Source of the DNA: Amanita rubescens
Lineage: Eukaryota; Basidiomycota; Agaricomycetes; Agaricales; Amanitaceae
DNA: 64,000 nucleotides
Reading direction: 5' to 3'
NCBI GenBank assembly: GCA_015039365.1
Contig: WION01000034.1
Span: forward strand, 1 to 64,000
The translations under genes were made by a program, and so were the position numbers. The notes under the pieces were generated by a model. That model searched no databases. It had not been told where the DNA came from and saw only the letters and a program-made list of their open reading frames with translations. Position 1 is the stretch's first letter. Each line of letters opens with the position of its first letter. Below are positions 13,544-40,380 of this stretch, in pieces.

Positions 13544-16085
13544 TCAAGTTCCATCCTGATACGTCAGCGAGTTGAAAGAGGATATAAGCGACATGCTGGC
13601 TTCATTTTGCTGCGCGAAACCATCTACTTTTCGTCCTTTCAAGCCTTCACTAATTACGATACTCGCCTCACTAAGGTGTGATGCGCTTTGTGACCGAGTG
13701 TGTGATGAAGATTTCGCAACCACATTGTCAGTCGGAACTAACTCGAGGAGCTCCTTTACTAGAAAGCTCTGGAACAATGCAATCATCTCTTCAACAATTT
13801 CATCCGGGAGCCATTTTGGTAGTTCCACTGGATAAACAGTGGCATGACAGCCACGAACGGTGAAATGGTCAAGGACACTAGCCTTCTCCTTCAATATCCG
13901 GACGAGTTCTGCACAAACTGGGCAACATAGTTTTGACACCGATAACAGGCTTTTGTCCAGTTTCTATGAAGGCCCAGCAACGGTTAGTCAAGCCATCCAT
14001 ACGAAGGGTGCATAAGGACAACATACAGCAATAATATCGAGGAGTTTATCAGCGTCCCGGCCCTTCTTCTGTATAGCCAGCTCGTAGTACTCAGCCAGTG
14101 CTGCGAGCACGGCCTCGCAGTGGACAGCGAAGTCTAGTAGCCCCATCTGTGTGCCTTGAAAGATCTTCCGGAAGAGATGAACAGCATACGCTGATGTACC
14201 ATGTCCTATACGATTTTCTGTAGAATCTTGAAGTGCGTCTTCAAAGACCTTGTAGACCTGGTCGCAATCAAGTTTTGAATCATTTTTGTCCGCGGCTATT
14301 GCGGCAGCGATGACTTCTTTGTACTCATGCCAAGATGGGGCTTGGTACTGTGAGGACCTGACGCCAATGACCGATATCTCAACATGCATACGGTGCATGC
14401 TGGCTTCATGTTCCAAAACCCGTTTCGCAAGGAATTGGGATGCAATGCTACGCATCCATATCAAGTACATTGCAATACTTGGGCGTTCTAGAAGCTGCTC
14501 AAACCTGGTCAGCGTCGAAACTTCCATACATGAAGCATAGGCATACATCTGCGGCATCGTCTGCGGCATCGTCTGCGGCATCGTCTGCGGCATCGTCTGG
14601 GTTTGACTCAAAGACTGTTCAGCATCATAGTCTCATACTAAAATTGGGAGTTTTGCATACCTGTGGTCCTGCGTCACCTCCTGCAACAGCCCATGTGTTC
14701 TCTGCTGAGTAGACTCCATACCTCCTGCCAAAACCTTTATATTCCTCTCTGTGATTGTAGTCAGGTACCAGGCCCCCAAAGGACTGGCCTTGGCGCGAGA
14801 GGACCTCCATATGGGTCACAAATGACGGTGAGGTCAAAATGTAAATCAAGAGTCGGAGGTACCCTCCGAGCGAACCAAAAATGAGCTGCATGCCGTTTTT
14901 CACTTCAGGTGTCTTTTTTTGTTCGGAGAGCCTGTGGAAACCTTGGACAAACCTTCCAGTCATAATGAATGTGGCTATAACAAGTCTGTGAAAATCGATG
15001 GCCGTCTCCCGATTGTAGATCCAGATTTTTTCAGAGACTTCACCTATCAAGCGAGTAAAAGGCATTCCGTCGGCAGCCGCTAGCCCCTGGACAATTTCTG
15101 CATTGTTTTGAAGGAAGATAGCTAACGGATCACGTTGTGGGGACTCGGGCTCTGATGGTGGATCCAGCTCCTCAAAGTTGGAAAAAGACATCTGCGAAAG
15201 CTGACGCTTCTTCTCCAGGTCACTCCAGGCATAATCGTGGATCGCTGAATGGAGATGGCCATCTGCTAAAAAACGGCGGAAAAGAAAGAGAAGGCCTAGC
15301 CATTGCCAGGACATGAACCGGCGCCGCAATTTTCTCCAGCATAGGGAAAGGAGGTATTGAAAGAAGTGCTCGGAATATAAGCTCCGGTCGCTGTCACTTG
15401 ATGTCGAAAATTCATCAAAGTATTTAGAAACAGTTTCCGCATGGTCTGCTAGAGGTCTTGTACCCCTAGTTATTTGGCCATGTAGGTGAGATTTATAACA
15501 CACGGGCGGCAGATCTACTCACTTGAATAACCAACAAAAAGGATCCTTTTTGATGTCTTTCCAAATGTCAACTCCTCTAGGGATGATGCTAATGTTGTAA
15601 TTGTTGTGACGTGATGCTTCCTCGGCGGCAAGGACTCTTGGGTTTGCCGTGGTAGCGACATTTATCGGCTTCCGAGTTTTTGGGTCTTGGTTCGGGACCA
15701 TAATAGGGAAGCCGAGGGCATATTCTTTCCTTTCGTTGTCTACTACTGTGAGCCCCACGTTTCCAACGTCCCGGTAACAAGCGGCAACGATTTCATGATC
15801 CTGTACCAGGATAGAGCTCACTGCATCTAACGCCGTAAAATCACCTTCATGGTCTGAGAGCCCGTATCTCTGGGCCGCATCTTCGGCATACGTGTACAAA
15901 GATGCATCGCCATTTTTGTTCTTTATTAAAAGTGCGAGTTGCAGTAGCTGGATGAGCATGGTGAAGCGGGGAACCTTAGGGTACGACTGGGATTGGGAGC
16001 CTTCCAAGGACTCGGGTGGCATAGCAGAAGTAACAGCTAAAGTAGTGTCGTCCACCGCTGGGAGACTAGCAGCCAGAACGACCAT
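13544..16085 (-). CDS. OTT_1508-like deaminase family protein, paralogue A
   Basis: Four exons fit splice consensus and the other paralogues: about 16,085-15,523, 15,465-14,661, an exon ending 14,027, and 13,963-13,544. The catalytic signature of the deaminase superfamily is split over the last two exons: HCE (FAVHCEAVLAALAEYY) supplies one zinc ligand and the proton-shuttling glutamate, and CCPVC supplies the other zinc ligands. A conserved RGCHATVYP motif follows. The fungal OTT_1508 group was proposed by comparative genomics to act on nucleotides or nucleic acids and to descend from bacterial toxin-type deaminases; substrate and location are unknown. The N-terminal 450 residues are a conserved, mostly helical region found in all four copies. 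The start is the ATG at 16,085, downstream of an in-frame ATG at 16,139. Near exon 3 is a 12-bp coding minisatellite. Confidence 0.68.
14540..14597. repeat. 12-bp minisatellite in paralogue A
   Basis: Four near-perfect copies of a 12-bp unit (cgtctgcggcat on plus) encode repeated QTMP on the minus strand. They sit at or just inside the 5' edge of exon 3. Each unit contains GCAG, which offers alternative AG acceptors on the coding strand. Confidence 0.7.
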
Positions 16086-16154
16086 GGATAAGTCTAGGCA
16101 TGGCGAGTAATGAGTACCGAACACAAAGATGAAGATCACTCTAACTTACTGGCC

Positions 16155-16400: not shown

Positions 16401-16880
16401 CTCCCCCGAACCTGGCACCACAACTGGGATAGCCCTGCACTGAATTACATATATATTTATATTAATGTGATGACTAACAACGCGGCCCAGGCTTCCGGAA
16501 CACCATTGCTGACGCCATATGGAAAGGTACATACGGTAGTACGGGAGTCTTCAGAGCGCGCAAGCAACTTGCCCCAACTCATTTTCTCTTCTTAAGTATG
16601 CCTTACTGATCCGTATCGATTCTCAGCAGTTTTTACTACGGTACATCCTGTGGAGATTCAAACATTCCCGGGGCCACAAGCCTCTCTCATCAACAGACCA
16701 TTCTCAGTTGTCATCATCCCCGCTGCTTGGAGAAGCCAGTGAGTCGAGTTTTGGACATCTTAGAGGATTATTGTCTCATTGATCTCCCAAATTTCAGCGT
16801 TTTTTTAATGTCATGCCGGCCCTGGCGCCTTTCCTCCGAGTCCGTATTGTTCTTACAAGGTAAGTTTGCAATTCAAATTG
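16400..16880. other. spacer with an inverted segment shared with 20,735-20,790
   Basis: No gene is seen. The piece at about 16,805-16,850 (catgccggccctggcgcctt) recurs inverted at 20,740-20,775, each time next to an R1 end. The R1 copies flanking 17.3-20.2 kb are therefore part of longer inverted arms. Confidence 0.45.
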
Positions 16881-17290
16881 AGGACTAGATTTCAGTGATA
16901 CCTTGGGCCATTCTTAAAATAGAATTTCAATGGGTATATCCAGCGCGTCAGGAGAGAGCCAAAGAGAGCCTAAGAGAGTTTATGAGAGTTGAAGAGAGAT
17001 TCGCCCCTTTTGGCAGGACTCGGTGTTGCCTCGACAGCTTCTCTCCTATCTTCACCTTCCTCTTACGTCATCCTCACGCAGAAACCACACGTTGCGTTGC
17101 TCCCAAGGTTCCCTATCTCAATCGAACAGGGAGGTGAAGAGAGGAGAGACGCTGAGTCCCTGCGAAATGTGGCAAGTTGCAGTGTGACCTGAATCTCTCT
17201 TAGGCTCTCTCAGACTCTCTTAGGCTCTCTTTGTCTCTCTTTGTCTCTCTCCGCGATCACAGGCTGAAGTTACTCATCGCCCTTAGGGAG
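16880..17290. repeat. two R1 ends joined head to head
   Basis: 16,880-17,130 is an R1 3' end on minus (GAGAGCC array, then the gccccttttggcaggactcgg block). At about 17,131 it switches to an R1 3' end on plus (gaggtgaagagaggagagacgctgag, then CT array to 17,252). The result is an inverted junction. Confidence 0.65.
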
Positions 17291-17555
17291 CTGGCCGAGT
17301 GTAGGCATGAATGGCATGAGCAACACAATGCATTGACCCCAAGCTGAAGGAAAATAAAGTAGAATCTTAAACGATCACTTGAATGTATTTGAACAAAGCA
17401 CATGGTGATGATAATCATTAATAAATGGTTAGGCTGGAGATAAATCATGACAACCGTTTTTGGGATCAACTTGACAGCTTGAATACGGTGATCAAAATAT
17501 GATGATATCAAATGTTCGCTAAGAAAGGCTAAGAGATTATTACAAGAAAAAGAAA

Positions 17556-19508
17556 CTAAGTGTCTGGCAATGTTCTTGGAATGATGGCTGCACGACCAAA
17601 ATACCGAAAGTAACTCTGGGTGTAGAATCTGGCAAGAGCGTATTCGTAATGTAGCAGCTCGTTCTCTGGGGCCTCTGCTGTCGGTGTTGGCAGGCGCGCT
17701 ACATGATGTCGATGATAACTGTCCCATTCAAACATCACCCGACGCAAAGCATGGAGGTATGGAAGGCGATCTCGGACATCAGGGGATGCCAGTCCCAGGC
17801 GAGCGTTTCTAACAGACACCGTTGCCAGATGACGAGGTTGGTTGGGACGGAAGTAGAAACACCGTAATACGAGTCCCTCCCGGACCAGAGAATCAAGATC
17901 TTGATGTCGACCCTCAAACAGGCGTCGATCAAGAGCACGGCGATCCAATATGAGAAGTTCGAACCGGAACGATAGCTCTGAAATACCCCACATGTGTTCC
18001 TGCGTCTCCCGCACCGTAAACTCCCTGTTAGAGACCTGGTGGAGATTGGATATGTCGATGCCCAGTGCAGTTGCCTCTGGTGACAACAAATTGGTTAGGA
18101 AATGACGAGATTTTCCTGCCATGGTCTGTTGATTGGGCTCATGTCCATGCAATAGAGTACGCCAATCCTGGTTCGAGAGCAAACGGACTTCAGGGGCATT
18201 AGACGCCAGACGGTATATGCATAAATCACGGATGGTTGTCCATAATGTAAGGAACCGATTTCGTCGCTGGGGATTGTTTCCAGAACAGAAAAGTCCCGGT
18301 TCCGGGAATGCATACTTGCCATCATTTTCTGCTAGCTTGGTCGACGAGTAAAGATATTTTGGGTCACGATCGACAGCGAGCAGGGCACATTGCCACGATT
18401 GTAATGCAGGAGGCATGTATGGACTATCAATCGGCTCAAACTTATCCCGGTCTGTTGATGCTTTAGGGCATGGTTTTCCAGAACGGGAATCTGCTGTATA
18501 TAAGATGCAAAATTAGCTGAATGAATGGAGTAACTTACACGGTTGGTGCTTTATGCGTGAGTCTCGAGTATTTCGCGAGGGTCCAGCTTGCTCGAATTCG
18601 TGTGGTTTAATTCCTCTCGGGTTTCCGTCACTAAAGAGGTCCGTATAACGAAGTGATTTTAAGCCGTGCTCGGAGATCGCCCGAAATCGGTTGTAGTTTG
18701 AATCGCCCACGTAGATGCGTGGAAAGGGGGGGACATAGTCTTCCAGTTCCAGCTTGTCTTGTGGTTGAATGATAGACGTGATGGAGAGGATATTCTCTTT
18801 CACGAAGGACGAGATGGGGCGTATGAACCAATAAGGGATCCCTGCAGCAAAAAGTCTCTCCGCGACATCTGCGTTAAGGACAAAGCAACCGATGACCTTG
18901 GCCGTTTCTGTTGCAGGAGCGACGCGACCTTCCATGTAGGGTTCAAAAATCTCTATGTAGTCAAGCAGCGCCCACAGCTCCATCCACAGACGTTGAATCT
19001 GCCGAAATTCGAATAAGACCTCTTTACGCGTCATTGCGACTGCCCTCAAACGACTTAAACTACGGCGGAGATTAACGGATAGCAATTTTGTTTCAGGGTA
19101 ATGGGTGCTATGATCAACTTTAGCTTGGACCGCCCTCTCATGCAACCGTTCGCAGCACTGCTCCATTGCTTGCAACTCGTGATGTGGAAGGAACCCGATC
19201 CCAAAGCTCCATCCATGTTGATGGACCGGTTCAAAATCAACCCGGGTGGGATTCCACCACATGATCGAATACTCCGACGCTAGCGCATCTTTTTGGGGAA
19301 CACAGCACAGGTACGGGGCTGACCGAGAAAATGGCTGAGGCCACTGCGTGTGATCGTCCACACCATAACGGCCGCCTATCCTTGCATATAAATTACAACG
19401 ACCGGGAGGCGCAAAGATATGCTCTTGGTTGGGAGTGGCGATATAATAATCGGAATAGTGAGGGTGAACAGCTGCAACGCGTCCATCGAACGCCCCGAGA
19501 GGCACTAA
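17556..19508 (-). CDS. unnamed agaricomycete family gene (copy 2, fuller)
   Basis: At least two exons: about 19,508-18,530 and about 18,490-17,556, separated by a short intron. A further 5' exon (19,771-19,560) is possible but its splice to the rest is unclear. The protein exceeds 600 residues. It contains a conserved AAGIPYWFIRPI segment, a QHGWSFGIGFLPHHEL segment, and in exon 2 a SPYMPPALQSW motif with a YAFPEPGLF block. I recall this arrangement from abundant uncharacterised agaricomycete proteins; I know no function. There is no signal peptide, membrane segment or catalytic motif that I can identify. It is flanked by inverted R1 copies. A truncated relative is at 6930-7735. Confidence 0.6.
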
Positions 19509-19799
19509 GATAACATTAAGGTGCTGTGATCGTACGTGCCATAGGTAGCTTACCATCAGTTCTCCGATTCCGCAACAAATCCGTCGCTTGTGTAGGTATA
19601 GAAACAGCTGGCGGCATATCTTCGGGTATCGTCAATAAGAATAGCGCCACTGTGATAAGAGACGGATATACATACTGAAGGCGGTGGATCGCAACAATAT
19701 ATCACAAAATGTGATGAGGCGTCGCAGGTCGAAGGGATCCAGGGAACAAGCAACGGAATAAACGGAGTCAAAGGAAAAATCCAGGCGAAGAACCGGAGG

Positions 19800-20000
19800 T
19801 AATTTCCTCAGAATCGGCGTGGACCTCTTGACAAAAGAGCGGGGTCGGCGAAAAGTGATCTTGAGGACGGAAAAGAGAGGAGGGCGAGGAGAGACTGAGG
19901 AGCGACGGCCCGCTCGGAAACAAGCACGTGCTCACCGCTCCTCTCTTTGGCTCTCTTTGGCGCTCTTTGGCGCTCTTTGGCTCTCTTTGGCTCTCTTTCG
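19800..20000. repeat. CTCTTTGG microsatellite
   Basis: Six or so units of ggctctcttt/ggcgctcttt at about 19,938-19,998, resembling the R1 terminal array, preceded by a purine-rich stretch. The frames across it are composition artefacts. Confidence 0.6.
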
Positions 20001-20232
20001 GACCGATACTACATTCAATGAAGTATGGTTTCAAAAATCATCAACATAACACTCATACTAATAAAATTGAAATCGAGGCAGGAAGTTCTGCTGCGCCCAC
20101 TAGGACGGCTCATCATCGACGACATTTTTACGACCCCGGAGAAGAAGGCCCAAGGGAGTGTAGGTGTACCAGGGACAACCGCCGAAAGTTATATCAACAG
20201 GTTACCGACGACGGCCTGAGTCACTAAAACTT

Positions 20233-20730
20233 AAGTGAGGAAGGTGAAGAGAGGAGAGAAGCATCAGTCCTGCCAAAAGGGGCGAATCTCTTAAACTCTC
20301 TCACTATGGGCACAGGAGTGTTTCTGATAAAATATTCCATTTCTCCAGCGAGAATAGTTCGCGAAAAATATTGGAATAATAAGTTTCCAAAACATCCATT
20401 TCGTTGACATTTTGCCTGAAACAGAAATTCCCACGGTTTCCACCCAAGCGAAATGTCCGACGAAATGTTGTAATTAGTCAAACGAGCGAGGCACGAGCGC
20501 GTTTGATGAAAAACTTCGAAATTTTCTTACACTAGTTCCCCTTACGAAATTTGGTATTTCAGCCTTTCTCCCTCCTGGAAACGTGTCCGCGCCAGTGGTG
20601 AGATCTTAAACACTTGAACTCTCTTAGGCTCTCTTTGTCTCTCTTTGTCTCTCTTTGTCTCTCTAATTTCTGGCCCGTGATCACGCTCTCATTGGCCCAA
20701 TGAGAAATATAGTCCTCAATAATTGAAAAC
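20233..20730 (+). repeat. R1 3' end split by a small insertion
   Basis: The R1 3' block (20,233-20,296) and its CT array and tail (20,615-20,730) are separated by the 307-bp element at 20,297-20,603. Confidence 0.65.
20297..20603. mobile_element. MITE-like insertion with 8-bp target duplication
   Basis: The flanks carry an exact 8-bp direct repeat, TCTTAAAC, at 20,289-20,296 and 20,604-20,611. The ends are imperfect inverted repeats: the left starts TCTCTCACTATGGGCAC and the complement of the right end starts TCTCACCACTGGCGCGG. It has no coding capacity. An 8-bp duplication is the hAT habit, so this may be a hAT-type MITE; the ends are too diverged to be sure. Confidence 0.5.
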
Positions 20731-21004
20731 TGACCAATACTCGGAGGAAAGGCGCCAGGGCTGGCATGACATTAAAGTTCGGTGCTAATCTAAGTGACAT
20801 GTCATACGAAACGCTAATGAATACGAGTCAAAGATACGGCAATAACGACAACCCAATTAACAAATATATACCGTCACGTTGAACCGAGAGGTGCTATGAA
20901 TTTTGAACTCAAATTGATACTGGGCTAGTCAAGTAGTAGCACAAAGCGCTAATTAAAGACATGCATGTCACGGTTAATCAATCTAAGGGTAATACAATAT
21001 CTAT

Positions 21005-23496
21005 TCATTCATTTGAACGGGACCCGGCCTTGTTGAGCGCAGGCCGAAATCGAAAGCGGTCTTCCGATCTGTGGATACACGACAAGACCACTGCATTACT
21101 GGAAAAGGGGTCATCACGGTTTCTGCTCGCGGAGCCAAGACCGAGATTTGGACCACCAGTCAACTGATGGCGATATACAATCTTCTTATCCACCGCTTCT
21201 GTCAATGCCTTAGCCTTGGCAGGCCTGGCCACTACCTGCTTAGCATCAAGGATAGCCATCAGCTGGACCAGTTCAGCGCCAAGGTAGCTTCGGAACTTCA
21301 AATTCATCCTTCCGCGGATTTCATCCGAAATCCAGGGAGGCAACACGAGTGGATAAATTTGTGGGTGGGAACCGCGGATAGCAAGTCTTGGAGATGAGTC
21401 ATCGGTTCCCTTGGTGACCGAGATACTCCTCAACAGCGCGATAAGCTCCCAACAGACCGGGCAGCATGGCTTTGGTACTGCAACCATAGATGAATTTAAT
21501 TTCTATAAATGGTTTTGATCGTCAATGATCCTTTAATACACTAAGACGACGCACCAATGTTGAAATGTCTTTCGACTCTCTGAAAGCCTCGGAAAGCGCC
21601 ACAAGTGCAGCTTCACAATGGACGGTCAAGCCCACCGTCAATTTCGGTTTCGACGACTCCCCCTGGCTTTCGTAATCTATAAGCTTCCGAAAGTGGTCAA
21701 TATAAGCGACCGATCTACGATAGCTTTTCCTCTTTTTTCCAAATTCCTCTAAGAGCCTTGCAACAACGAAGCTAGTATTATATTTTGCAGGGCGGTCTGG
21801 GCATGTTTGTAATGCATCATCAATGAGAGACTTGAACTCGCTCCACTGCGGAATAGAGTAATGAACCCGGTCAGTGGTCATGACCGCTATCTCGATCGTC
21901 GATTTAGGGAAATGTGCATGCATTTTTGTGCATTTTTGTTCCAAATGCCGCTTCCCAATGAACTGCAGAAGAAAGCCTCTGATCCATCGGACAAGCACCG
22001 AAACATCATCTTCATTTGGTCGCAGAGCCTACATGAAACCTCAACATCGCATATGTTTATGACATACGAGACTTCAATACCTCTAAATCCACCTCAGCCT
22101 CTTCATCAGAGGGTTCCTCTACATTCGCAATCTCCCCCTCAATGGGTGTGACTGCCGAGCTCCCACCCATAAGCACACTTTTACGAAGCTTCCATTTCGA
22201 ATCATATGACGACCTATCTTCGAATACAGGAACCAGATTTTTAACACCGCCCTGTGCCATAAACATCATGTAGGTTCTGAATGAGGTGGAGGCTAAAATA
22301 TTTAGGAGGAGGCGGGTATACAATCCGATCCGACGGAAGGATTGCATCGCTGTATTCCGAGCATTGGCATCCAGCTGCTTCCAATTTCGGTAGTGGGTCT
22401 TGAATTGCTCGAGCTCCGCTGTTAGCATGATAAACGTGCCCAAAACAAGCCTGTGAAAATCTTTGGCGGTGTTCTTCGTGAAGAGAGCATGTTGGTCATT
22501 CTGGACTGCTCCCATTAAGGAACTGAAAGATGCAGTTTCGAACGCTCTGCCGCGGGCAAGAATCGCGTCCAATACCACGGGGATAAAATCGTGCTTTTTG
22601 AGGAACTTGGTTAGGGAATTATCACCGGTGTGTGGTATGTCGAACGATTCCCACTGCGAGTACCCGTTAATTGCATCCGAATTCTCGAGTTTGAGCCAGG
22701 TAAGTTCCAAGTGATAGACGAAGCCTAGTCCTGGCCAGGATGTGAAACGCCGGTGTAGTTTCTCCCAACAGAATGATAGAAGGTAGTTAAAGAATTTGCG
22801 GCCATAACCCATTTGATTATCGCCTTTTGGATTGCCCTCCAAGTCGGAAGAAGCGGCCTTGAAATCGTTGAGATACGAACAAATTGTCTTCGCGTGTGAT
22901 CCCAGAGACACTGACTCGCCCCTGGTACTCAAACATAAGATTCGCGGCTCAGAAACGAGAGTAGCGGGTAAATTTACTCGCCGAGCTATTATATCCAGAG
23001 GATCGTAGTTATTGGCTTGTGATTCTTTGATCTTTGGCCAAATATCTTCCCCGTCGGTGATGAACCTTAGATTAAGAGGATTCAAGTTTGTTTCAAGAGC
23101 GTTGGTCTCCTTGTCTGCGTTAGCCATAACGACGATATGGCACGGCATCATGTATTTCTGCTTGTCAGAATCAAGAACTGGATCGTCAATGCATCCTTCT
23201 TTGTGTACATGGGGCATAGCGAGTGGTTCTTCGTCACGATAGCATGCCGCTACAACACCTTCGTTCGGCGTCAAAAGTGCGTTGAAGGCTTCCAATGTAG
23301 TGAATTTAGGATCTGACCCAGATATGTGGCTGCTGGAATGTGTCAGACGAAACGCCCACAAAGTTAAATCTTCATCTCGATGTCGTAATGTAACAGTGGC
23401 TTGTAGCAGCATAGTGATCATGGAAAACTTGTCCATCTCGACTGCGACTTTAGATAGAGGCCGTTTTTCAGTGGGCGAAATAGCCGGAGGAGTCAT
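21005..23496 (-). CDS. OTT_1508-like deaminase family protein, paralogue B
   Basis: Three exons: about 23,496-22,081, 22,028-21,541 and 21,506-21,005, with intron positions matching paralogues A and C. The deaminase signature is intact: HCE (LTVHCEAALVALSEAF) in exon 2 and CCPVC (PKPCCPVCWELI) in exon 3, followed by RGSHPQIYP where the others have RGCH. A helical WIRGFLLQFIGKRHLE segment, conserved in all paralogues, precedes the catalytic part. The start is the only long-frame ATG at 23,496. Compared with A and C it lacks the proline-rich N-terminal extension. It is strongly diverged from its neighbours at the DNA level, so the family is old or fast evolving. Confidence 0.68.
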
Positions 23497-23499
23497 AGT

Positions 23500-24160
23500 G
23501 GCAGGGAGTCTCTGTGGGTCCTCGAAGCTACGTGATTAAAAGAAGTCGACGATGCACAAATTGCTGTGACTCACCGATGCAGAGGACCTAATAACTATGA
23601 GAGCTGGTGATGGGACGGGACTCGACGGCGTGGGACTTGGATAACACTGTCAACAAATCGCTCACTGTGACTGCCGCGGCTAATGGCGGCCTTTGAAGGT
23701 AACTAGGCAGAGGGATATGTGAGGCGGATGAATGGTGAGGTGCGCTTTGTGGTGCAAACTTGAAGCACGTCAATGGTGAACAATTCTCGGCGCACTAAGC
23801 GCCGAGGGATGAAAGGAGGAGGCGTCATCGCGTTGTAATGTTCAACATATACAGCTGCCAGTACCTCTTTTCGCTAATAAATTGTTGTCCCGGAGTGCTT
23901 GGCAGCAACGCGTTATTGCCCGGGCCATGCGATGGCAGTCGCAGGTAAGTGAAGGTCTCATCTATCCTGAACACACGACGCTGAACACTGTTCCAGGGTG
24001 GAACTACGAACACAAATGCATCGTTGCAGCCGCAGGTAAGTGAAGGTCACATCTATCCCGAACACACGACGCTGAACACTGTTCAAAATACGAACGCAAA
24101 TGCATCGTCGCAGGTATGAAGATGCCACCTGTTATGAGCACCTGGTGTTGAATACTGTTT
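23500..24160. repeat. three-copy tandem repeat of about 83 bp
   Basis: Units at about 23,940-24,005, 24,030-24,095 and a diverged one at 24,108-24,165 share a cgcaggtaagtgaaggtc start and an acgctgaacactgtt end. They lead directly into deaminase fragment E. The start of each unit resembles a splice donor and the end a splice-acceptor-like stretch, so the units may be duplicated intron sequence. I see no gene in 23,540-23,930. Confidence 0.5.
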
Positions 24161-25166: not shown

Positions 25167-26798
25167 CTAGAATCCTACAACTTCACGGTACCATTCCCCA
25201 ACCGGTGATCGCAACAACTCCCCCTTCATGACCCTGTGCAAACCTGGAGGCTTTGGGTATTCTAGAACATTGGTACAATCTTTGGTATTACACACAAGGC
25301 GGATCAGACTGAAATCCGTCTTCTCCTGGTTTACCTGGGGTTTGGGAATGAAAGACTTAAGAGCCTTACAACCAGTGCACTGAATCGGTAGCGGAAACCC
25401 GAAGGGACGGTGTCCAGGATGAGACCAGGTTAAGCGTTCAGCCGAACCAGAGTGGTATAGGACGTAGACATCTGAGTGGCTCCCCAACACCTGGTGGTTG
25501 AGGAGCATGCCCGAGACCGGATTTCTCCTGTATATGAACCAGAACAAGTTTGTGTCCATGAGAAAGGCATTGGCAGTGGACGGTTGAAAATCAACCTGCC
25601 CAAAAGCCATTAACGAGTGGAAGGGGGAACTGACCAGTCAGCTCCTGCATGGAAATTGAGCGGGATCAAGGCTCACGTGTTCAGAAAAGTCTTGACTTCG
25701 TTGAAGGACTGGGTGTGTTTCATGATCCCCCCGCACGCAAGCAGGGTGATGGTATTTTGGTCGGAACCTGGTTTCAAAACCTCGAGAAGCGGGGGAGGGA
25801 AGAGCATTGGAAATATCTGTAGACTTTGCGTTAGAGGTGCACAAGATGACGGGCTTTTACTCACCTCAGATACGGGTGCGGCGCCCTGGTTCTCTGGGGC
25901 GAAGTGGAGATCGCCTCGGGAAGGGTCCGTGTGGTCAATCAAGAATACGGCAAACCGTTGGAACCTCATTGAATGAATGAGAATTTAAACAAATCAAACA
26001 CGCATAGAATTACCTAACCAAGTTGCCAGATCGTATCCTTTGGGCGAGCGTACTCACTTCTCGGACATAGTTGTCTACACTATCAGGGGTGGAGAAGTCG
26101 AATGAAATGATGATGTGTTGGATGTTTTGACGTAGATACGGGTAAAGGTGTTGATAGACGACCATGGGAGGGAGGCCGTCGCATGGAATCGAAACAAGTT
26201 TTATCGTTATCATGAGTAGGGGCTCCGAAGAGCAGACAGGCATGAATTCTCGCTGTGAGTGCATCCCAGTCACGGTTAGGGGAACACCAGCGTCATCCTG
26301 CCAAACTCAGATAAGCAGCATGAGAAGATAATGAAGGAAAACTCACAAGGTACGGTTTTAAATTATTCCGAGCGCCATTCGAACGAAATATATGGCAATG
26401 TGGACAAGAAAACTGGTTGTTTACCGAAAGCTGAACGTTTGGGACGCACTTGGAACATACGGTTCGAGGACAAGTGTCACAGTCGGTCAAAGCTCCTCCA
26501 TTTCGGCAGAGCGCACAGAACTGGACCCAACAACATTAGAAATGTGGGTAGCAATGTCAAGGGGGGGTGAACATACGATCGCGGCGGTGCTGGGCTCAGC
26601 GCCGAGCTCAATAGCGGATAAGTTCAGGTTCTGGGGTACTGGTGGCGTCGCGGTAGGGGCCTTCGCCTTGCTTGAACCAGCACGCCCAAGCCGTTTTTTG
26701 GGAGTAGCGGCCCGGGTGCTTCCAGATATAGAGGCAATTTGTTTTCGGGGAGCATCTTCACCCGTGCATTTACGTCCGGTATTCTTTGTCCGGGCCAT
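25167..26798 (-). CDS. histone H3 tail look-alike + PHD finger protein with caspase/CHAT-like dyad
   Basis: Exon 1 (26,798-26,577) starts MARTKNTGRKCTGEDAPRKQ, matching histone H3 residues 1-19 at 13 of 19 positions, including K4, R8, K9, R17 and K18. A basic low-complexity linker follows. Exon 2 (26,520-26,347) is a PHD-type zinc finger: CALCRNGG, then DCDTCPRTVCSKC and a final CPHC pair, with Cys where many PHD fingers have His. Exon 3 (about 26,298-26,037) and the next exons hold a conserved domain with a His (FLIDHTD) and a Cys (LLACGG) spaced as in caspase/CHAT-like proteases; that reading is inference. The C-terminus has a CTGCKALK pair and a later CNTKDC pair, which could form a zinc ribbon. 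PHD fingers typically read the H3 tail, so self-binding is conceivable. I recall similar proteins as common but unnamed in agaricomycetes. A 143-bp satellite begins just upstream of the start. Confidence 0.65.
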
Positions 26799-26879
26799 GG
26801 GAGGAGATGGAGAGAGCTGACAGTCGTTGTCAGCACGTAGCAATAATAATTTTGCTGCCCACATCACGTGACAGGGATG

Positions 26880-28200
26880 TTCAACAATTTAATCACGCTG
26901 ACTCCGCGTTTATTCTTCTTCTCCAGTCGCAACGTTCAATTGAGCGTGCGCATTCGCATGTTACATCGACGGCTGCCATCTTCGGTGCCGTGATGGTTCA
27001 AGTCCACTTTGATGGGCTTGTTTTGACTGCAAGTGCTGCCTTTGAATCTGACGCGTTTATTATTCTTCACCAGTCCCAACGTTCAGGCGTGCGCATTCGT
27101 ATGTTACATCGACGGCTGCCATCTTCGGTGCCGTGATGGTGCAAGTCCACTTTGATGGGCTTGTTTTGACTGCAAGTGCTGCTTTTGGATCTGACGCGTT
27201 TATTATTCTTCCCCAGTCTCAACGTTCAAGCGTGCGCATTCGTATGTTACATCGACGGCTGCCATCTTCGGTACCGTGATGGTGCAAGTCCACTTTGATG
27301 GGCTTGTTTTGACTGCAAGTGCTGCTTTTGGATCTGACGCATTTATTATTCTTCCCCAGTCCCAACGTTCAAGCGTGCGCATTCGTATGTTACATCGACG
27401 GCTGCCATCTTCGGTGCCGTGATGGTGCAAGTCCACTTTGATGGGCTTGTTTTGACTGCAAGTGCTGCTTTTGGATCTGACGCGTTTATTATTCTTCCCC
27501 AGTCCCAACGTTCAAGCGTGCGCATTTGTACGTTACATCGACGGCTGCCATCTTGTACTGCCTTTGGATCTGACGCGTTTATTATTCTTCCCCCGTCCCA
27601 ACGTTCAAGCGTGCGCATTCGTATGTTACATCGACGGCTGCCATCTTCGGTACCGTGATGGTGCAAGTCCACTTTGATGGGCTTGTTTTGACTGCAAGTA
27701 CTGCCTTTGGATCTGACGCGTTTATTATTCTTCCCCAGTCCCAACGTTCAAGCGTGCGCATTCGTATGTTACATCGACGGCTGCCATCTTCGGTGCCGTG
27801 ATGGTGCAAGTCCACTTTGATGGGCTTGTTTTGACTGCAAGTGCTGCCTTTGGATCTGACGCGTTTATTATTCTTCCCCAGTCCCAACGTTCGAGCGTGC
27901 GCATTCATATGTTACATCGACGGCTGCCATCTTCGGTGCCGTGATGGTGCAAGTCCACTTTGATGGGCTTGTTTTAACCGCAAGTACTGCCTTTGGATCT
28001 GACGCTTTTATTATTCTTCCCAAGTCCCAACGTGCACACTGCCAGTGAGCCTGAGCGGTACCCATGTCACATGACAGGGATTGTTCAACAATTTAATTAT
28101 GCGCTGTGACTCCGAGTCTGCGTTTATCTTTCGCAACGTTCAAGCGTGCGCATTCGTATGTTACATTGACGGCTTCCATCTTCGGCGCCGTGATGCAAGT
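26880..28200. repeat. 143-bp tandem satellite
   Basis: Units start (at gcgtgcgcattcgtatgtt) at 26,944, 27,087, 27,230, 27,373, 27,516, 27,609, 27,752 and 27,895: six spacings of exactly 143 bp and one of 93 bp, where 50 bp is missing from a unit. The units are nearly identical. Both ends are bracketed by a diverged unit beginning acagggat(t)gttcaacaatttaat (26,870 and 28,075). 143 is not a multiple of three, so the overlapping long frames on both strands are not genes. It sits between the promoter side of the H3-mimic gene and the 3' end of deaminase C. Confidence 0.9.
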
Positions 28201-28398: not shown

Positions 28399-30804
28399 CT
28401 ATAGCGCGTCACGACGATATACTTTAAGATAAAATTTAGAACCGAGTCCTCGTTTCTCCGGGTCGTCAATAGTCAGTGCACCAGAAGACAGCTTCGCGAC
28501 GTGGTTCTGCTCCAAGCTATGATTATCATTCAGGCTAGTGTTTAATAGCTTGCAGAGCTCCCTGCGCAAATATCCTTGAAATTTCAACATCATGTCGCCA
28601 TAGATATGTGGAGGAAGCCATGTTGGTAGCACTGTCGCGCAGACTGTGGAGTGACACCCACGAACAGTGATGGAGTGGCATTCAGTCCGAGTATCTTGGT
28701 CTGCTTCCTCTCCCTTTAAGGAGTGCAAAAGTTCCCGGCAAACGGGGCAACATCGCTTCGACACTGATATCACACTTTCTTTCAATTCCTACAGAATATA
28801 ATCAGTTAATTTTCTGAACAAAAGACACGGATGAATGAATCCAAGTACCTTGCAGATCTGAGCCAAGCCCTCGTTCGTAGTGAGTTCATTGTCAGGGCAA
28901 AATTTCACAAATGCTGCGAGCACAGCCTCGCAATGCGGGGCCAGAGTGATTTCTTCTACTTTCCCTTCCATAAGACCGCGAAAGATGTTTACAGTCATGT
29001 TCACATTCACATCTGTATCACAAGGTGTGAAATGCATTAATTTCTCTTCGAGGAGCCGGAAAACGTTGGGTATACGGATAGGGAGGCGAGGGTAAATTGT
29101 TGTCCGTAATGCAATCTCGATGGTTTCCTTAAAATTGTCCCAAGACGGGACGCGATATCGGACGCAGTCGACAGTAAGAAGTGGCATCTTGATTGGGATA
29201 TCATAATGCACGCGACATTGGGCTTGCAACTCCCGCTGTGCGAGGAATTGAAGAACAAATGTCTTCAGCCATCTGACGAATGCACCCGCAGTTAAAGGTT
29301 CCGGAGGAGCCTTCAAACCGTTGAGCTTCAGGTGTACTACGCGACCGAACTACATTGCGTACCTGTAACTCAAAGTCGTCCGTCGAAGAACCACCCACAT
29401 CACAGGGGTGATCAGCTTTCATGTCGCTTGCCCCGGTGTCCAAACAAGACAATGCCTTGTTGACTGGACACCTCCTGGATACTAAATCATGGTCCCATAT
29501 CTTCATGCTTTCACCAAATTTCCTATATTCTCCCCTCTCGTCGAAATCAGGTACCAATTCCTGGAGTCCCAGAATATTCTGGAACACCTCCATATGTTTC
29601 GCAAACGCAGATGATGTCGTAAGATAGAGAATGAGCGTCGTGTGTGCTTGTAACCCATAGAAGAGTTGCAGCAGTGAACCCTCCGAGTTCAGCTTGTGGC
29701 CAGCTCTTGACAGATTGACAGCTTTACCGAACAGAGAAAGAGAATGGCCAAACATAACAAACGCGGCAAACACGAAGTGGTGAAATTCATTGGCGGTCTC
29801 CCTGGTGTAGAGCCGGTTGCCACATTTGGCAGCTGCCGCCAGCGCCTGAAAATCAATGGAAGGGCCTCTAACGGGAAGCCATTCAAAAATGGATGATAGA
29901 CCATTGACCACGTTATCATGCTCGGAGAGGAATCTGCAAAGACGCTTGTCATGAGTCATATCATATTCAGTGTCTCCCCAATTGGCATCCTTGGCAATTT
30001 GCGAGTTGAACTGGCAGTGATATAATCTGTAAATGAAACCGAGCCCGCGCCAGGAGGAGATCCGCCGATAAATGCTTGGCCAACAAACTGTAAGAAGATA
30101 TTTGAAAAATCGGTTGGAATAATCCGATTGGACAGAAGGATGGCTCCTGTAGTCGTTAAGATAAGCACACAGGGTTGAAATGTGCTCCTCGATGGAGGTA
30201 GGGCCCCTAGTATGTCAGTGTCACATGTGATAGCGTAGAGGGATGAACTTGATACTTACTTGATCATGCGACATTCGGGGTTCGATAAGATCTCTGGCCA
30301 GTGCCCGTCGTCTTCATCCGTTTTAACGTGTCGGAGGATGTGCAATCTCCCGCACAGGTGCTTCTTTTCATTCCGTTCCACAGCGCTTTGCCGGTGACAC
30401 AGCGCTATGAAGTTGTTTGAGCCGTCCTTGAGATAAGCGGCAGCGACAGTGTCGTGGCACTGTACAATGATTGCACCAATGGCATCCAACGGCCCATCTG
30501 CCGTTCCATTGGAGATAAAAGAATCTGGCTCGAAAGATAGATCATCTGCAAATCCATCCAAAGACGTATTACCATTTACACAGTTTAAGATCACGACGAG
30601 ACGTAGCAACAAGGTGAGAACGGCGAGATCATCGAGTAAAGGTAATTCCTGAAGATTCTTGGCTTCTGCAGATTCAGAGGAGTTTGACAGCAAGGCGGGA
30701 CTCGGCGCGGCCAAAATAATGCTATCCGCTGGAGTTCTTGTCAACACTATTGAAGGAGATCTTGGAGGGAACATCATCGAAGGGGTGGGGTACCCTGGTG
30801 CCAT
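28399..30804 (-). CDS. OTT_1508-like deaminase family protein, paralogue C
   Basis: Four exons: about 30,804-30,260, 30,204-29,363, 29,313-28,849 and 28,788-28,399. The catalytic signature is HCE (TLAPHCEAVLAAFVKF) in exon 3 and CCPVC (KRCCPVCRELL) in exon 4, followed by RGCHSTV. Exon 1 begins with a proline/serine-rich stretch. The start could also be 30,876; I prefer 30,804 because the extra residues are not matched in paralogue D. Most of exon 2, the preceding intron and the end of exon 1 are nearly identical to paralogue D, while the rest has diverged strongly. C and D are divergently arranged, 4.5 kb apart. Confidence 0.7.
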
Positions 30805-35292: not shown

Positions 35293-38106
35293 ATGCCTAC
35301 GACCAGCGTAGCACCATCGCAAATCCCTTCCACGACAATGTCACACATCCCTTCCACGACCATGGACGCCTTTGTGTTCCCTCGCAGAGGAGGATTCTTA
35401 TCAAAGAGTCCTGGGACTGTCCCTTCCGCACTGCCTTCCGATTTCCCCAGTACAGACGGTCGCAATCGTAAGCCTAAGGCCAACGTGGGCAATCAAGAAT
35501 CACCTTTACTTGACGAAGTCGGCATGCTCACACTGTTGCTACGCGTAATCGCCATCATAAATAATAAAAATGGAGATTGTTCTTTACGAGGCTTTCAGCA
35601 AAATACCGAAGTTACTTGCGGGCCACTTTTTCCCTACGACGAAGCAGATCTTATTCCCCTAGAGGCTGTCAGCGCAATTCTAGTGCAACAGCACGAAATC
35701 ATCGCTGCGGGCTACCAGAAACACACGCCGTCAAATGTAGTGTTTGGTCGGGATCGCCGCACATTGAATGTCAAGCTAGGTATTAACACTCCAAAGTCAA
35801 TATTTTTCTAGTTACTAACTTTTATACGCTAGTGGGTAAAGAATTACAAGAAAACATACCCGACGATTTCGGCATCCCCTTAGCAGAACACCCCAATCCT
35901 CCGCGATTTGAACCAAAGTTTACGATAACGGCCAACCCCAGGTCAATGAATGAAGACTCAGCGGGAAATTTTCATAATCTCCGTCACGTTAAAACGGGTG
36001 AAGACGACGGGCACTGGCCAGACATCCTATCAAACCCCGAATGTCGCATGATCAAGTAAGTAATTCATCCCTCTACACTATCACATGTGACACTGACATA
36101 CTAGGGGCCCTACCTCCCTCGAGGAGCACATTTCGACTGTGTGCGCTTATCTTAACGACTACAGGAGCCATCCCTCTGTCCAATCGGATTATTCCAACCG
36201 ATTTTTCAAATATCTTCTTACAGTTTGTTGGCCAAAACTTTATCGGCGGATCTCCTCCTGGCGCGGGCTCGGTTTCATTTACAGATTATATCACTGCCAG
36301 TTCAACTCGCAAATTGCCAAGGATGCCAATTGGGGAGACACTGAATATGACATGGCTCATGAAAAACATCTTCGCAGATTCCTTTCCGAGCATGATAACG
36401 TGGTCAATGGTCTATCATCCGTTTTTGAATGGCTTCCCGTTAGAGGCCCTTCCATTGATTTCCAGGCGCTGGCGGCAGCTGCCAAATGTGGCAACCGGCT
36501 CTACACCAGGGAGACCGCCAATGAATTTCACCACTTCGTGTTTGCCGCGTTTGTTATGTTTGGCCATTCTCTATCTCTGTTCGGTAAAGCTGTCACTCTG
36601 TCAAGAGATTGCCGCGAGCTGAACTCGGCAATACAACAACTCTTCTATGGGCTACAAGCACACACGACGCTCATTCTCTATCTTACGACATCATCTGCGT
36701 TTGCGAAACATATGGAGGTGTTCCAGAATAGTCTGGGACTCCAGGAATTGGTACCTGATTTCGACCAGAGGGAAGAATACAAGAAATTTGGCGAAAGCAT
36801 GAAGATAAAGGACCATGATTTAGTGACCGAGAGGTGTTCATCCTCCAATGCAACGCCTGATTTGAGCACTGGAGCAAGCAACGCGAAGGCTAATGACAAG
36901 GCCAAGGCAAACGATGCCAAGCTTAATGACAAGGCCGAGGAAAACGGCCTGGAGCCTGCCAACGCCGGGGCCAAGGTGACATCATCTGACTCCGGGGCAG
37001 GCACTGACGCGCCGGGAAACGTGGATTCATTATCCGAGGAGTCCGAGTTGGAGGTACGCAGTACTTTTCGTTATGTTCTATACCTGGCGCTAAACAATTT
37101 CAAGGGACCTCCGGAAGGTTTAAGCGCAGAATCATTCATTGGATGGTTGAAGACCTTTATCGTTCAATTTATCGCAAAGCGAGTATTGGAGCTGCAATGC
37201 CGCAAGCGGCCTGGTACTCCAGTCGAGATGTCACTACTTGCCGTCGACCGCAAAGTATATCGCGTCCCGCCTTGGACTGAATTCCAGAAGTTGATACAAA
37301 GTACAGTCAAAATCGCAAGTGGAGGTCTTTCTATTTCATGCGCAACAAAGGAGGTAGTCCCAACCATCGAGAAGAAGATCGAAGATTTCATCGCGTCCGA
37401 CCCGGACGTGGAAAAAACTATGGACATATTTCGCACTATAATAAATTCCGCGACGAAAGAGAGCAAACAGCGGAAACCGAGGAAACACACTCAGAAGAAA
37501 CCGAGGCTCTATACTGTGGGCTCGCACAGTGAGACGCTACTCGGAATGCTCATGAAGTTTGGAAGCCGGATTGAGGTCGACGACCCAGAGCTGGCGAAAC
37601 TTTGCGCGGTAAGTCTTCGTGCATTCGTCATCTCCAACCACTCATGCATCACGGGTCTACAGGGATTGCACGACGGGTTGATCGGCGTTTCAAAGCTCTG
37701 TTGCCCTATTTGCTGGCACGTTCTTGGAGCGCTACGACAAATTAAGCAAAACGAACTTATGGTCCGCGGATGTCATTCGAACATGTATGGGTTGGTACTT
37801 CCACCATTTCTTTCTGACATCGACACTGCGGACTCAATGAACCGCATGAAGACGATCGTAAATCTCTTGAAATGCGAATTACTCCAATCTATTTGCGATT
37901 TGGTCAAACCTGAGGTGAAGGCTGATCCAGGGTTGGACAGTAACAGTACAACCCCGAAGCGACCCACTCATCAACCCAAGCAGGAGAGTGTTACGAGTAT
38001 GGAATTCGGATACGACAGCAGCAGCAGCAGCGGCAGCTTAAACGATGTGACGATACGACAGGTTGAGTACCCGTTAGAAAAACACATGCCATCTAGGGTT
38101 CCGTGA
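35293..38106 (+). CDS. OTT_1508-like deaminase family protein, paralogue D
   Basis: Exons about 35,293-35,779, 35,833-36,055, 36,105-37,608 and 37,663-38,106. The 37,609-37,662 intron is 54 bp and in frame, and a further 51-bp in-frame intron at about 37,053-37,103 is likely by comparison with C. The catalytic motifs are HSE (VGSHSETLLGMLMKF; Ser replaces the usual Cys between H and E, which should not matter) and CCPIC. A lysine-rich linker between catalytic and N-terminal parts contains repeated KAND/KLND units (36,890-36,950). The N-terminus before the first intron is proline- and serine-rich. The middle is a near copy of paralogue C while both ends differ. Confidence 0.7.
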
Positions 38107-38351: not shown

Positions 38352-39910
38352 TCAGGCTATTCCGAGCTCGATTTTATGCTTCTGAAACTTGGGCTTTGGC
38401 AACGGTTTTGTAAAAATGTCGGCCGTCATTTCCTCGGTAGGACAATATTCGATGGCAATCGATTGATCATTGACTTTTTCTCGGATATAGTGATGTTTAA
38501 CATCAAAGTGTTTCGTGCGCTTGTGGTATTGCGGATTACTCGCTATCGCTAGCGCACCTTGATTGTCTCCGTGGATAACAGTCGGACCCTCGATTGGAAA
38601 ACCTAGTTCTCGGTATAAATTTCGAAGCCAGATGACTTCTCGGGCGGCATCAGCCATACAAGCATACTCGGCTTCGGTCGTCGACAGGCTCACGGACTTT
38701 TGCTTCTTGGACGTCCACGTTATGGCGCCTCCAGCAGCCAAAAACACATATCCCGTTACGGACGTCATATCCTCAAATGAGGCGAAGCTTGCGTCCGAAA
38801 AACCAACAATTTCCGTCTTTTCGTCGGATTTCACGGCTGACCGATATATGATGCCTTCGTGCCGAGTACCAGATAAGTACCGGAGTATTCTTTTTGCCGC
38901 TGACCAATGTTCTAGGTCTGGACTTGCCGTGTAAGACGCCAACCGAAATACCGCAAATACAATATCCGGTCTCGTGGCGACCGCGATAAACATTAAAGAT
39001 CCTATCAACGAAGCATAGGTATTGCTTCGATCTTGCGGATTCGACGATGCTTCCGGCTTTTCAAGTTTGATATTAGGGTCCATGGGAACGGCGACTCCGT
39101 TTGCGTTTTCAAGCCCGTATTTCAGCAGTAGTGCTTCGATATATTTTGTCTGGGTGAGTTTTACTTCCCCAGTCTCCTTGCCGATCGTTATTTCGATACC
39201 GACGATCTTACTTGGTTCACCCATATCAGTGATTTCGAACATGTCTCGTAGATCCGAAATGATGTGCGTCATTGCCGCATCGTCATTGGTAAACAACAGC
39301 AAGTCGTCTACCCAGACAGTTAAGATTTCAATACGGCCGTCTTTTTCACGACGATATGCGCACGGATCCGAGATTAATCTACGAAATCCCTTTTTGGTGA
39401 GCTTCTTATTTAGCTCCTCATTCCATTCGCGCCCTGATTGTTTCAGACCATACAGGGTCTTTATTAGGCGACAAACTTTATCCGTTCCGTCGCCAAACCC
39501 GAACGGTTGGTCCATATCTACCTCTTCTTTGAGGTATCCATTTAGGTACGCTCCTTTTACATCCATCTGACGTAATTTCCATCTTCTACGGACGGCTTCC
39601 GCCATTATGCTGCTGATTGTCTCAAAGCGTACGACAGGCGCAAACGTTTGATTGAAATCCATGCCTGGAATTTGGGAGAAGCCCTTTGCAACCAGACGCG
39701 CTTTATACTTGGTAATTTGTCCGTCTTTATTATATTTCTTGACGAACACCCATTTATTATCGACAGCTTTCCGGTCGCTCGGCGCGTCGACTAGGGTCCA
39801 AGTCCCCATCGCCTGGAGCTGATTAAGCTCGGCATTGATCGCTTTTTCCCATTCCGGCCATTCTGGAGAAGCCTTCGCTTCTTGAAGCGTTGTTGGATCG
39901 TCTATTGCAT
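38352..39910 (-). pseudogene. Copia (Ty1-type) reverse transcriptase-RNase H, 5'-truncated element
   Basis: An open frame of 485 codons (39,809-38,352) and an in-frame upstream stretch to about 39,910. Domains in order are the RT fingers (KYKARLVAKGFSQ), the palm with the catalytic VDD motif (WVDDLLLF), the connection, and an RNase H with GFSDASFAS and LSTTEAEYACMADAA blocks. Integrase, protease, gag and the 5' LTR are absent. At 39,910 it abuts the inverted copy of ORF X and an R1 copy. The frame has no internal stop, so insertion or truncation was recent. It cannot transpose alone. Confidence 0.85.
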
Positions 39911-39919
39911 CTGGAGAGC

Positions 39920-40380
39920 TTAGTGATCTAGCTCAACTGCATCATAATCTCCGCTCCCGGATGTTGAATTGAGTCGCTTAGACCTGGTGCTGGCAGAGTA
40001 GTTTCTAGCATTTCTCCATGTGAATGAAAAGTCATCCAAGAAATACAATGAGATTTCCGGATGTCTGGTGTAGGGTTTGCCATTGTCATGCCTACGTTTG
40101 TCTGCATGTCTCCAGCCGTCTTCAGTCTTATAATAAACCTGGTGTTTTTCGTAGTTTTTCGGCCGTTCTATCGTGCGTTGAAAGTTTAGGGTATCGGTAA
40201 CTTCCTGTGTATCTGAACTTTCGACCCCAATATCTCCAATGTTGCCCACGTCGGCCTGTGGAGAATGGGGACCAACGAAGATTTTGTACTCTATCCGTTC
40301 GGATTCGTTTTTGAACGATTTTCTAAAGATTGATGGGTATTGTTCTTACAAGGTGGTATTTTGTCAGTTTAATTATTGAG
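39920..40380 (-). CDS. conserved ORF 'X', uninterrupted copy
   Basis: This is the inverted counterpart of 2912-3368 and reads through in one frame, ending in VELDH near 39,920, where it joins the truncated Copia element. About 140 residues. The frame is open upstream of the indicated start. Function unknown. Being open here and frameshifted in the other copy suggests that the ancestor coded. Confidence 0.45.

Follow-up and report, generated by a model that had tools for sequence, protein, structure and literature searches.

Histone mimicry is known from viruses. Among cellular proteins, PAF15 is a non-histone protein whose H3-like VRTK amino end is read by the PHD finger of UHRF1 (PMC12704277), the SNAG domain of Snail and GFI1 is an H3-mimicking hook for the H3 enzyme LSD1 (PMC8080763), and LIG1 carries an internal H3K9-like mimic (PMC6316679). 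Here we analyse a gene from a stretch of 64,000 nucleotides of Amanita rubescens (assembly GCA_015039365.1, contig WION01000034.1, positions 1 to 64,000; hereafter the window), whose predicted product, the window protein, begins with a copy of the histone H3 tail and continues with a PHD-like finger and a caspase/CHAT-fold domain. It resembles PAF15 and UHRF1 in joining an H3-like amino end to a PHD reader, and the SNAG proteins in its H3-mimicking motif. In PAF15, the mimicry reportedly extends over about four residues, with the reader in another protein and no protease. The SNAG motif is also amino-terminal; it is much less H3-like and belongs to transcription factors that are not known to have a reader or a protease in the same chain. 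We found no description of the present family in the open-access literature searched.

The tail copy comprises residues 1-21 of the window protein (MARTKNTGRKCTGEDAPRKQI; 26736..26798, minus strand) and is located at the start codon. Residues 2-22 can be aligned without gaps to H3 residues 1-21, with 15 of 21 positions identical. Shuffling the same residues 200,000 times never produced 15 identities, the maximum being 11. A look-alike of the H3 tail at the start of the protein, as proposed in a previous sequence-only reading of this DNA, is therefore borne out. A phmmer search of the PDB with the window protein retrieved an H3 peptide (E 0.0036), and a profile of 19 family sequences matched histone H3 (E 3e-8) and a chain named Cse4 (E 1.8e-8); another family profile matched H3 at E 1.8e-7. 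In a Pisolithus relative (P0015), 15 of 17 tail residues are those of H3. The matches to H3 listed for the family profiles stop by about position 44, and the finger and an alpha/beta domain come further on, so that the window protein is an H3 mimic and not a histone. No histone fold was found behind the tail in the profile matches or in the predicted models of two relatives, which rules out a histone gene fragment. Chance resemblance to H3 is ruled out by the shuffle test together with the conservation between clades described below. The sequence pattern that recovers the six copies of the gene in this genome also recovers four more starts, each adjoining a match to the H3 body and written in other codons. 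For the residues shared among the first ten, 4 of 7 codons differ from the H3 start on contig C331, and a recent capture of that gene can therefore be discarded.

Searching with the whole window protein yielded 3 proteins. A profile of 3 sequences, with 8000 candidates scored, yielded 20, from Lyophyllum shimeji, Lyophyllum atratum, Tricholomella constricta, Pisolithus marmoratus, Heliocybe sulcata, Russula dissimulans and Amanita. When only the part behind the tail was used (E limit 0.1), at least 100 proteins were obtained, the last of the 100 listed having an E value of 1.3e-16. Among these 100, 94 are from Pisolithus (P. marmoratus 29, P. albus 14, P. microcarpus 12, P. orientalis 12, P. 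croceorrhizus 9, P. tinctorius 8, Pisolithus sp. B1 5, P. thermaeus 5), with 3 unnamed and 3 from Heliocybe. A tail with at least 11 of 20 H3 residues, which played no part in this search, is present in 74 of the 100 listed; the other 26 are mostly models starting at or after the finger, with a few decayed tails. In the complete set of 114 proteins, 84 bear the tail: 40 models begin exactly at it, and among the remaining 44 there are 37 with a Met just in front of it. For most members, the tail is thus neither absent nor random, and a Met stands immediately ahead of it in 77 of the 84 models that bear it. The conservation expected of orthologues under the sequence-only reading holds across several Agaricomycete genera and breaks down in a few members with decayed tails, such as P0105, P0008 and P0004. 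P0105 is divergent, with a finger-like stretch and a long branch near Heliocybe. Together, these sequences point to an undescribed Agaricomycete family in which an H3-tail copy is followed by a PHD-like finger, a cysteine-protease-like domain of predicted caspase/CHAT fold and a zinc-ribbon-like end.

Conservation was measured on proteins whose best 20-residue match to H3 reached at least 9 (85 of 114); a length filter of 300 left 71 aligned rows, and a limit of 85% identity left 28 representatives. The 29 dropped rows are mostly models starting at or after the finger, with a few decayed or shifted tails (P0004, P0037, P0065, P0081, P0105). In pairs from different clades among eight chosen members, the tail is 53-88% identical and the rest 19-37%. 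Amanita P0001 and Russula P0002 share 76% of the tail and 82% of the rest; outside the tail, identity between Amanita and Lyophyllum P0003 is 34%. Across three clades (Pisolithus, Lyophyllaceae and Amanita/Russula, Heliocybe being left out), 355 windows of 17 residues were ranked: the tail windows came first (0.59), the His motif scored 0.50 and the mean of the rest was 0.24. The neighbouring basic linker is less conserved than the tail (0.50 vs 0.78). In a tree built without the tail, MARTKQTARK is still found in clades that lie several changes per column apart; 14 of the 29 inner branches of this tree are starred and long branches meet, leaving only the main clades safe. Among 50 unique tails with an initiator Met, a small residue 2 occurs in 49, K9 in 49, K4 in 48, R17 in 47, T11 in 46, R2 in 40, R8 in 35, K14 in 15, K18 in 5 and S10 in 4. 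K4, K9, T11, A15 and R17 are retained across the family, and S10, K14 and K18 are mostly lost. A tail copy kept while the remaining protein diverged almost beyond recognition points to an undescribed chromatin-linked switch.

The gene lies on the minus strand (26798-25167), from an ATG at 26798-26796 to a stop at 25169-25167, and its six exons (26798-26577, 26520-26347, 26297-26014, 25964-25865, 25816-25677 and 25629-25167) encode a product of 460 amino acids. All introns have a GT donor and an AG acceptor, GAG in intron 3 and CAG in the remaining ones. The coordinates given by the sequence-only reading were exact, including the position of the H3-like stretch at the start codon of this gene model. 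The spliced product begins with MARTKNTGRKCTGEDAPRKQIAS; the PHD-like finger follows and the His/Cys pair lies further C-terminal. Exon 1, bounded by the GT donor after 26577, encodes the tail and a basic, Pro/Ala-rich linker (residues 1-74). The A. rubescens hypothetical protein F5887DRAFT_957912 (P0001) is spliced identically over the whole window protein and differs from it at 2 residues. Its annotated start is an in-frame ATG 22 codons upstream (26862..26864, minus strand), which adds 22 N-terminal residues. A 6-base indel between the two ATGs separates the two groups of gene copies, with the frame open in both.

Exon 2 encodes the finger, with eight Cys (residues 75-117), and the beginning of the following linker. 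phmmer matched the window protein to the CHD4 PHD finger (E 7.1e-10), and the 19-sequence profile matched those of PHF21A (E 4.2e-8) and CHD4 (E 7.4e-8); the P0015 finger searched alone gave solved fingers at E 0.017 and weaker. The nearest solved fingers by sequence are those of CHD4, PHF21A (BHC80), AIRE, SP140, NSD3 and DNMT3L, a class that binds H3 tails, several of them unmodified at K4. The finger of the window protein (C76, 79, 88, 91, 96, 99, 113 and 116) has a PHD-like spacing by eye and differs from this class by a Cys at the position of the PHD His ligand, a replacement also seen in ADD fingers. The acidic residues that PHF21A and AIRE presumably carry shortly ahead of the first Cys have no counterpart, by eye, in the Amanita and Pisolithus fingers, and parts of the finger are missing from the gene models of several relatives. 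No Pfam model passed its own cut-off for the window protein or for 10 relatives, the PHD model PF00628 scoring 16.9 bits against 24 (P0006) and the ADD model PF21255 14.3 against 27 (P0015). PADLOC gave weak matches only; the strongest links the P0015 finger with a model for orphan methyltransferases (E 1.9e-4). The PHD-type finger predicted for the exon next to the tail stands as a match to H3-reading PHD fingers, with the corrections that Cys takes the place of the His ligand and that every Pfam score stays below its cut-off. The family profile also matched the PDB chain 3a1b (named DNMT3A plus histone H3.1) across tail and finger together. We take 3a1b to be a laboratory-made H3 tail fused ahead of an ADD finger; that fusion would be artificial, whereas the arrangement in this family is natural and is followed by a caspase-fold domain. 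The ADD finger of DNMT3A is autoinhibitory.

The caspase/CHAT-fold domain begins in exon 3. The alignment of representatives places a catalytic-type His (H238, codon 25933-25931) within LIDHTDPSRGDL in exon 4 and a catalytic-type Cys (C288, codon 25735-25733) within LLACGG in exon 5; exon 6 encodes the end of the protease-like domain and a C-terminal CxxC...CxxxxC zinc-ribbon-like segment. AlphaFold2 models of two relatives (P0003 and P0015) show a caspase-type alpha/beta fold (clan CD). In P0015, H220 follows strand 212-218 and C256 follows strand 249-254, which is the clan CD layout (His after strand 3, Cys after strand 4). The His and the Cys are each present in 27 of 28 representatives, the remaining one having a gap, and both occur in 64 of the 65 rows with letters at the two positions (71 rows aligned). 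The His/Cys pair of a caspase/CHAT-like domain, suspected from the sequence, is thus supported by predicted fold and conservation. No CHAT or caspase Pfam model matched the window protein at E <= 10 or the 10 relatives at E <= 1, sequence identity to 8tl0 is 8-11%, and the zinc-ribbon Pfam matches to the C-terminal segment in relatives all fall below cut-off. Compared with SAVED-CHAT and the caspases of clan CD, the family has no SAVED part and no CHAT or caspase Pfam match, and possesses an H3 tail and a PHD-like finger instead. Caspases act in animal immunity. CHAT proteases act in type III CRISPR immunity (PMC11417357).

The A. rubescens genome contains six near-identical copies of the gene, all open; beyond these there was no further match at E <= 0.001, and one at E 0.07. 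The copies sit in two larger duplicated blocks of repeat-rich DNA, with transposons nearby. Those on contigs C268, C13 and C325 share 17.1-33.6 kb with gaps. Those on C4, C419 and C493 have the gene in common with the first group up to 24946, and the following 1.25 kb is inverted and located 9 kb away; a stop changed to a sense codon gives them nine extra residues (seen in C4 and C493, with the same base in C419). Identity over long stretches is 99.3-99.9% among C4, C419 and C493 and 99.8-99.9% between C13 and C325, so that part of the copies may represent haplotypes in an assembly of two nuclei. Between the window copy and the C4 group, 3 changes alter an amino acid and 7 are silent, in addition to the lost stop; with 0.71-0.75 of random changes expected to alter an amino acid, the probability of 3 or fewer altering changes in 10 is 0.003-0.01. 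The downstream flank is complete at the same six loci only, with short fragments elsewhere, and a widely spreading element is therefore not visible; a high-copy transposon gene is conceivable but unsupported on the same ground. The upstream flank is complete at three loci and represented by array units at the remaining three, and many contigs carry a 95-base piece of this flank. The units come from a tandem array of 143-bp repeats that immediately precedes the gene (26905..28036); further units are found ahead of each of the other five copies, with remnants at C4:105101-105643.

The only clear long pair of terminal repeats found delimits an element of about 4 kb (16804-20776) with 38-nt terminal inverted repeats, 97% complementary; its two longest open reading frames gave no Pfam match at E <= 0.01. 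Pieces within 13547-16145 (minus), 21008-23535 (minus), 28402-30214 (minus) and 36097-38103 (plus) belong to four genes or remnants that are paralogues of each other, and the gene lies between two of them. The last one resembles an OTT_1508-like deaminase (PF14441, E 2.4e-6; 27.8 bits, the cut-off being 27), and the reading frames of the other three match it or each other by blastp. A Copia-type reverse transcriptase frame is found at 38355-39932 (minus; RVT_2, E 1.2e-63). By classification, Lyophyllum is nearer to Amanita than Russula is. The Amanita-Russula similarity against the low similarity to Lyophyllum, together with the duplication, may point to transfer between species, or to a gene with selfish or immune-type behaviour.

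We regard it as very probable that the gene encodes a protein with a PHD finger and a caspase fold, on which the H3 mimic is conserved and functional. Removal of the initiator Met would expose the H3-like amino end, and the PHD finger would act as an exosite for unmodified H3 tails. The tethered copy would compete for this site, within its own molecule or in an adjacent one, and hold the protease latched. Real H3 tails would release the latch, as would enzymes that act on K4 or K9 of the copy by binding or modification; cleavage would then be confined to a given chromatin state. Since conservation continues past residue 6, the copy could also be a bait for K4/K9 enzymes or fit the substrate groove of the protease itself. 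Such a latch can be put forward only tentatively. Self-masking, decoy recruitment of H3-modifying enzymes and competition with nucleosomes, the roles suggested by the sequence-only reading, are likewise conjectural. A natural chromatin-gated protease, which would unite the tail copy, a reader of such tails and a caspase-type protease in a single chain and fire according to the state of H3 tails or the presence of H3-handling enzymes, is also possible rather than probable. The favoured account as a whole, a protease directed at H3 or gated by it, in which the tethered copy competes for the protein's own PHD finger, comes close to an even chance without reaching it.

Several observations weigh against this account. 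The conservation figures rest on rows chosen for their tail, a choice that favours the tail; K4 or R8 is lost in several Lyophyllaceae paralogues, and P0105 of P. microcarpus retains only 8 of 20 tail residues. The annotated start of P0001 would bury the tail inside the protein. Between the window copy and the C13 copy there are 2 amino-acid changes and 1 silent change, by themselves no sign of selection. With the second AlphaFold2 model, Foldseek gave no match at E <= 0.001, a sweet receptor coming first (3.3e-3) and CED-3 second (6.9e-3). A tail docked on the PHD finger was not seen in the AlphaFold2 monomers of P0003 and P0015, where pLDDT is below 50 for residues 1-13 and 1-45, respectively; in P0003, residues 11-20 have a mean pLDDT of about 59, with one bridge residue at 18. 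This lack of docking is weak evidence, since the Met was retained and few sequences were used. Finally, the tail is conserved to residue 17, beyond the need of an ARTK-binding PHD, and more than the finger therefore probably reads the copy.

Conservation up to R17 in excess of PHD needs would also suit a decoy of the host silencing machinery, as would the near-invariance of K4 and K9 against the variation at S10, K14 and K18. In such a decoy, the copy would be bound or methylated by K4/K9 enzymes or readers, titrating or recruiting them, and the PHD finger would anchor the protein to chromatin; the duplicating gene or its repeat-rich neighbourhood would thereby be shielded from H3K9-type silencing. 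The duplicated DNA with transposons close by and the multi-copy expansion in Pisolithus fit this proposal. However, a pure decoy needs no protease-like domain with a nearly invariant His/Cys pair, and the complete downstream flank at only six loci shows no widely spreading element, so that we consider the decoy rather unlikely. The protein may alternatively be an immune-type guard with an integrated bait, whose copy, when bound or cut by foreign or selfish H3-tail enzymes, would switch on a caspase-type killer or processing protease, by analogy with the integrated decoys of immune receptors. The caspase/CHAT fold belongs to a class with immune roles, 29 of the 100 listed matches come from one Pisolithus species, the 82% similarity of Amanita and Russula against 34% for Amanita and Lyophyllum P0003 is as for genes moved between species, and deaminase-like paralogues are among the neighbours. 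Yet no NLR-type sensor module was seen, and a bait might be expected to diversify, whereas the tail is the most conserved part; this reading appears unlikely.

Two simpler explanations concern the tail itself. Translation in Amanita could begin at the upstream ATG, as in the public model P0001, leaving the H3-like stretch internal and without an H3-type amino end; the frame there is open in both copy groups despite the 6-base indel. Nevertheless, 40 of the 84 tail-bearing models begin at the tail, a Met directly precedes it in 37 of the other 44, and the upstream stretch looks promoter-like by eye (A/T-rich, then a CT-rich run), which makes an upstream start improbable. The tail could also be no more than a chromatin address, or a by-product that arose when a basic N-terminus was captured from H3 and then drifted slowly, as the basic linker and the decayed tails of P0105, P0008 and P0004 might indicate. 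This is very improbable: between clades, the tail exceeds the rest more than twofold in identity and also surpasses the His motif, the adjacent linker is less conserved, and 4 of 7 codons differ from those of the H3 start on C331.

The known cellular H3 mimics are a few short motifs. The large fungal family described here has maintained a long H3-tail copy in combination with a finger of the reader type and a domain of caspase fold. Should the mechanism outlined above be correct, the tail copy would be a substrate-mimic latch or a bait. Histone mimicry would then be built into an immune-like or selfish gene family that belongs to the cell itself and has spread by duplication, perhaps also from one species to another. 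Either the latch or the bait would couple proteolysis directly to chromatin state, and the family would then represent a natural experiment on which residues of H3 matter.
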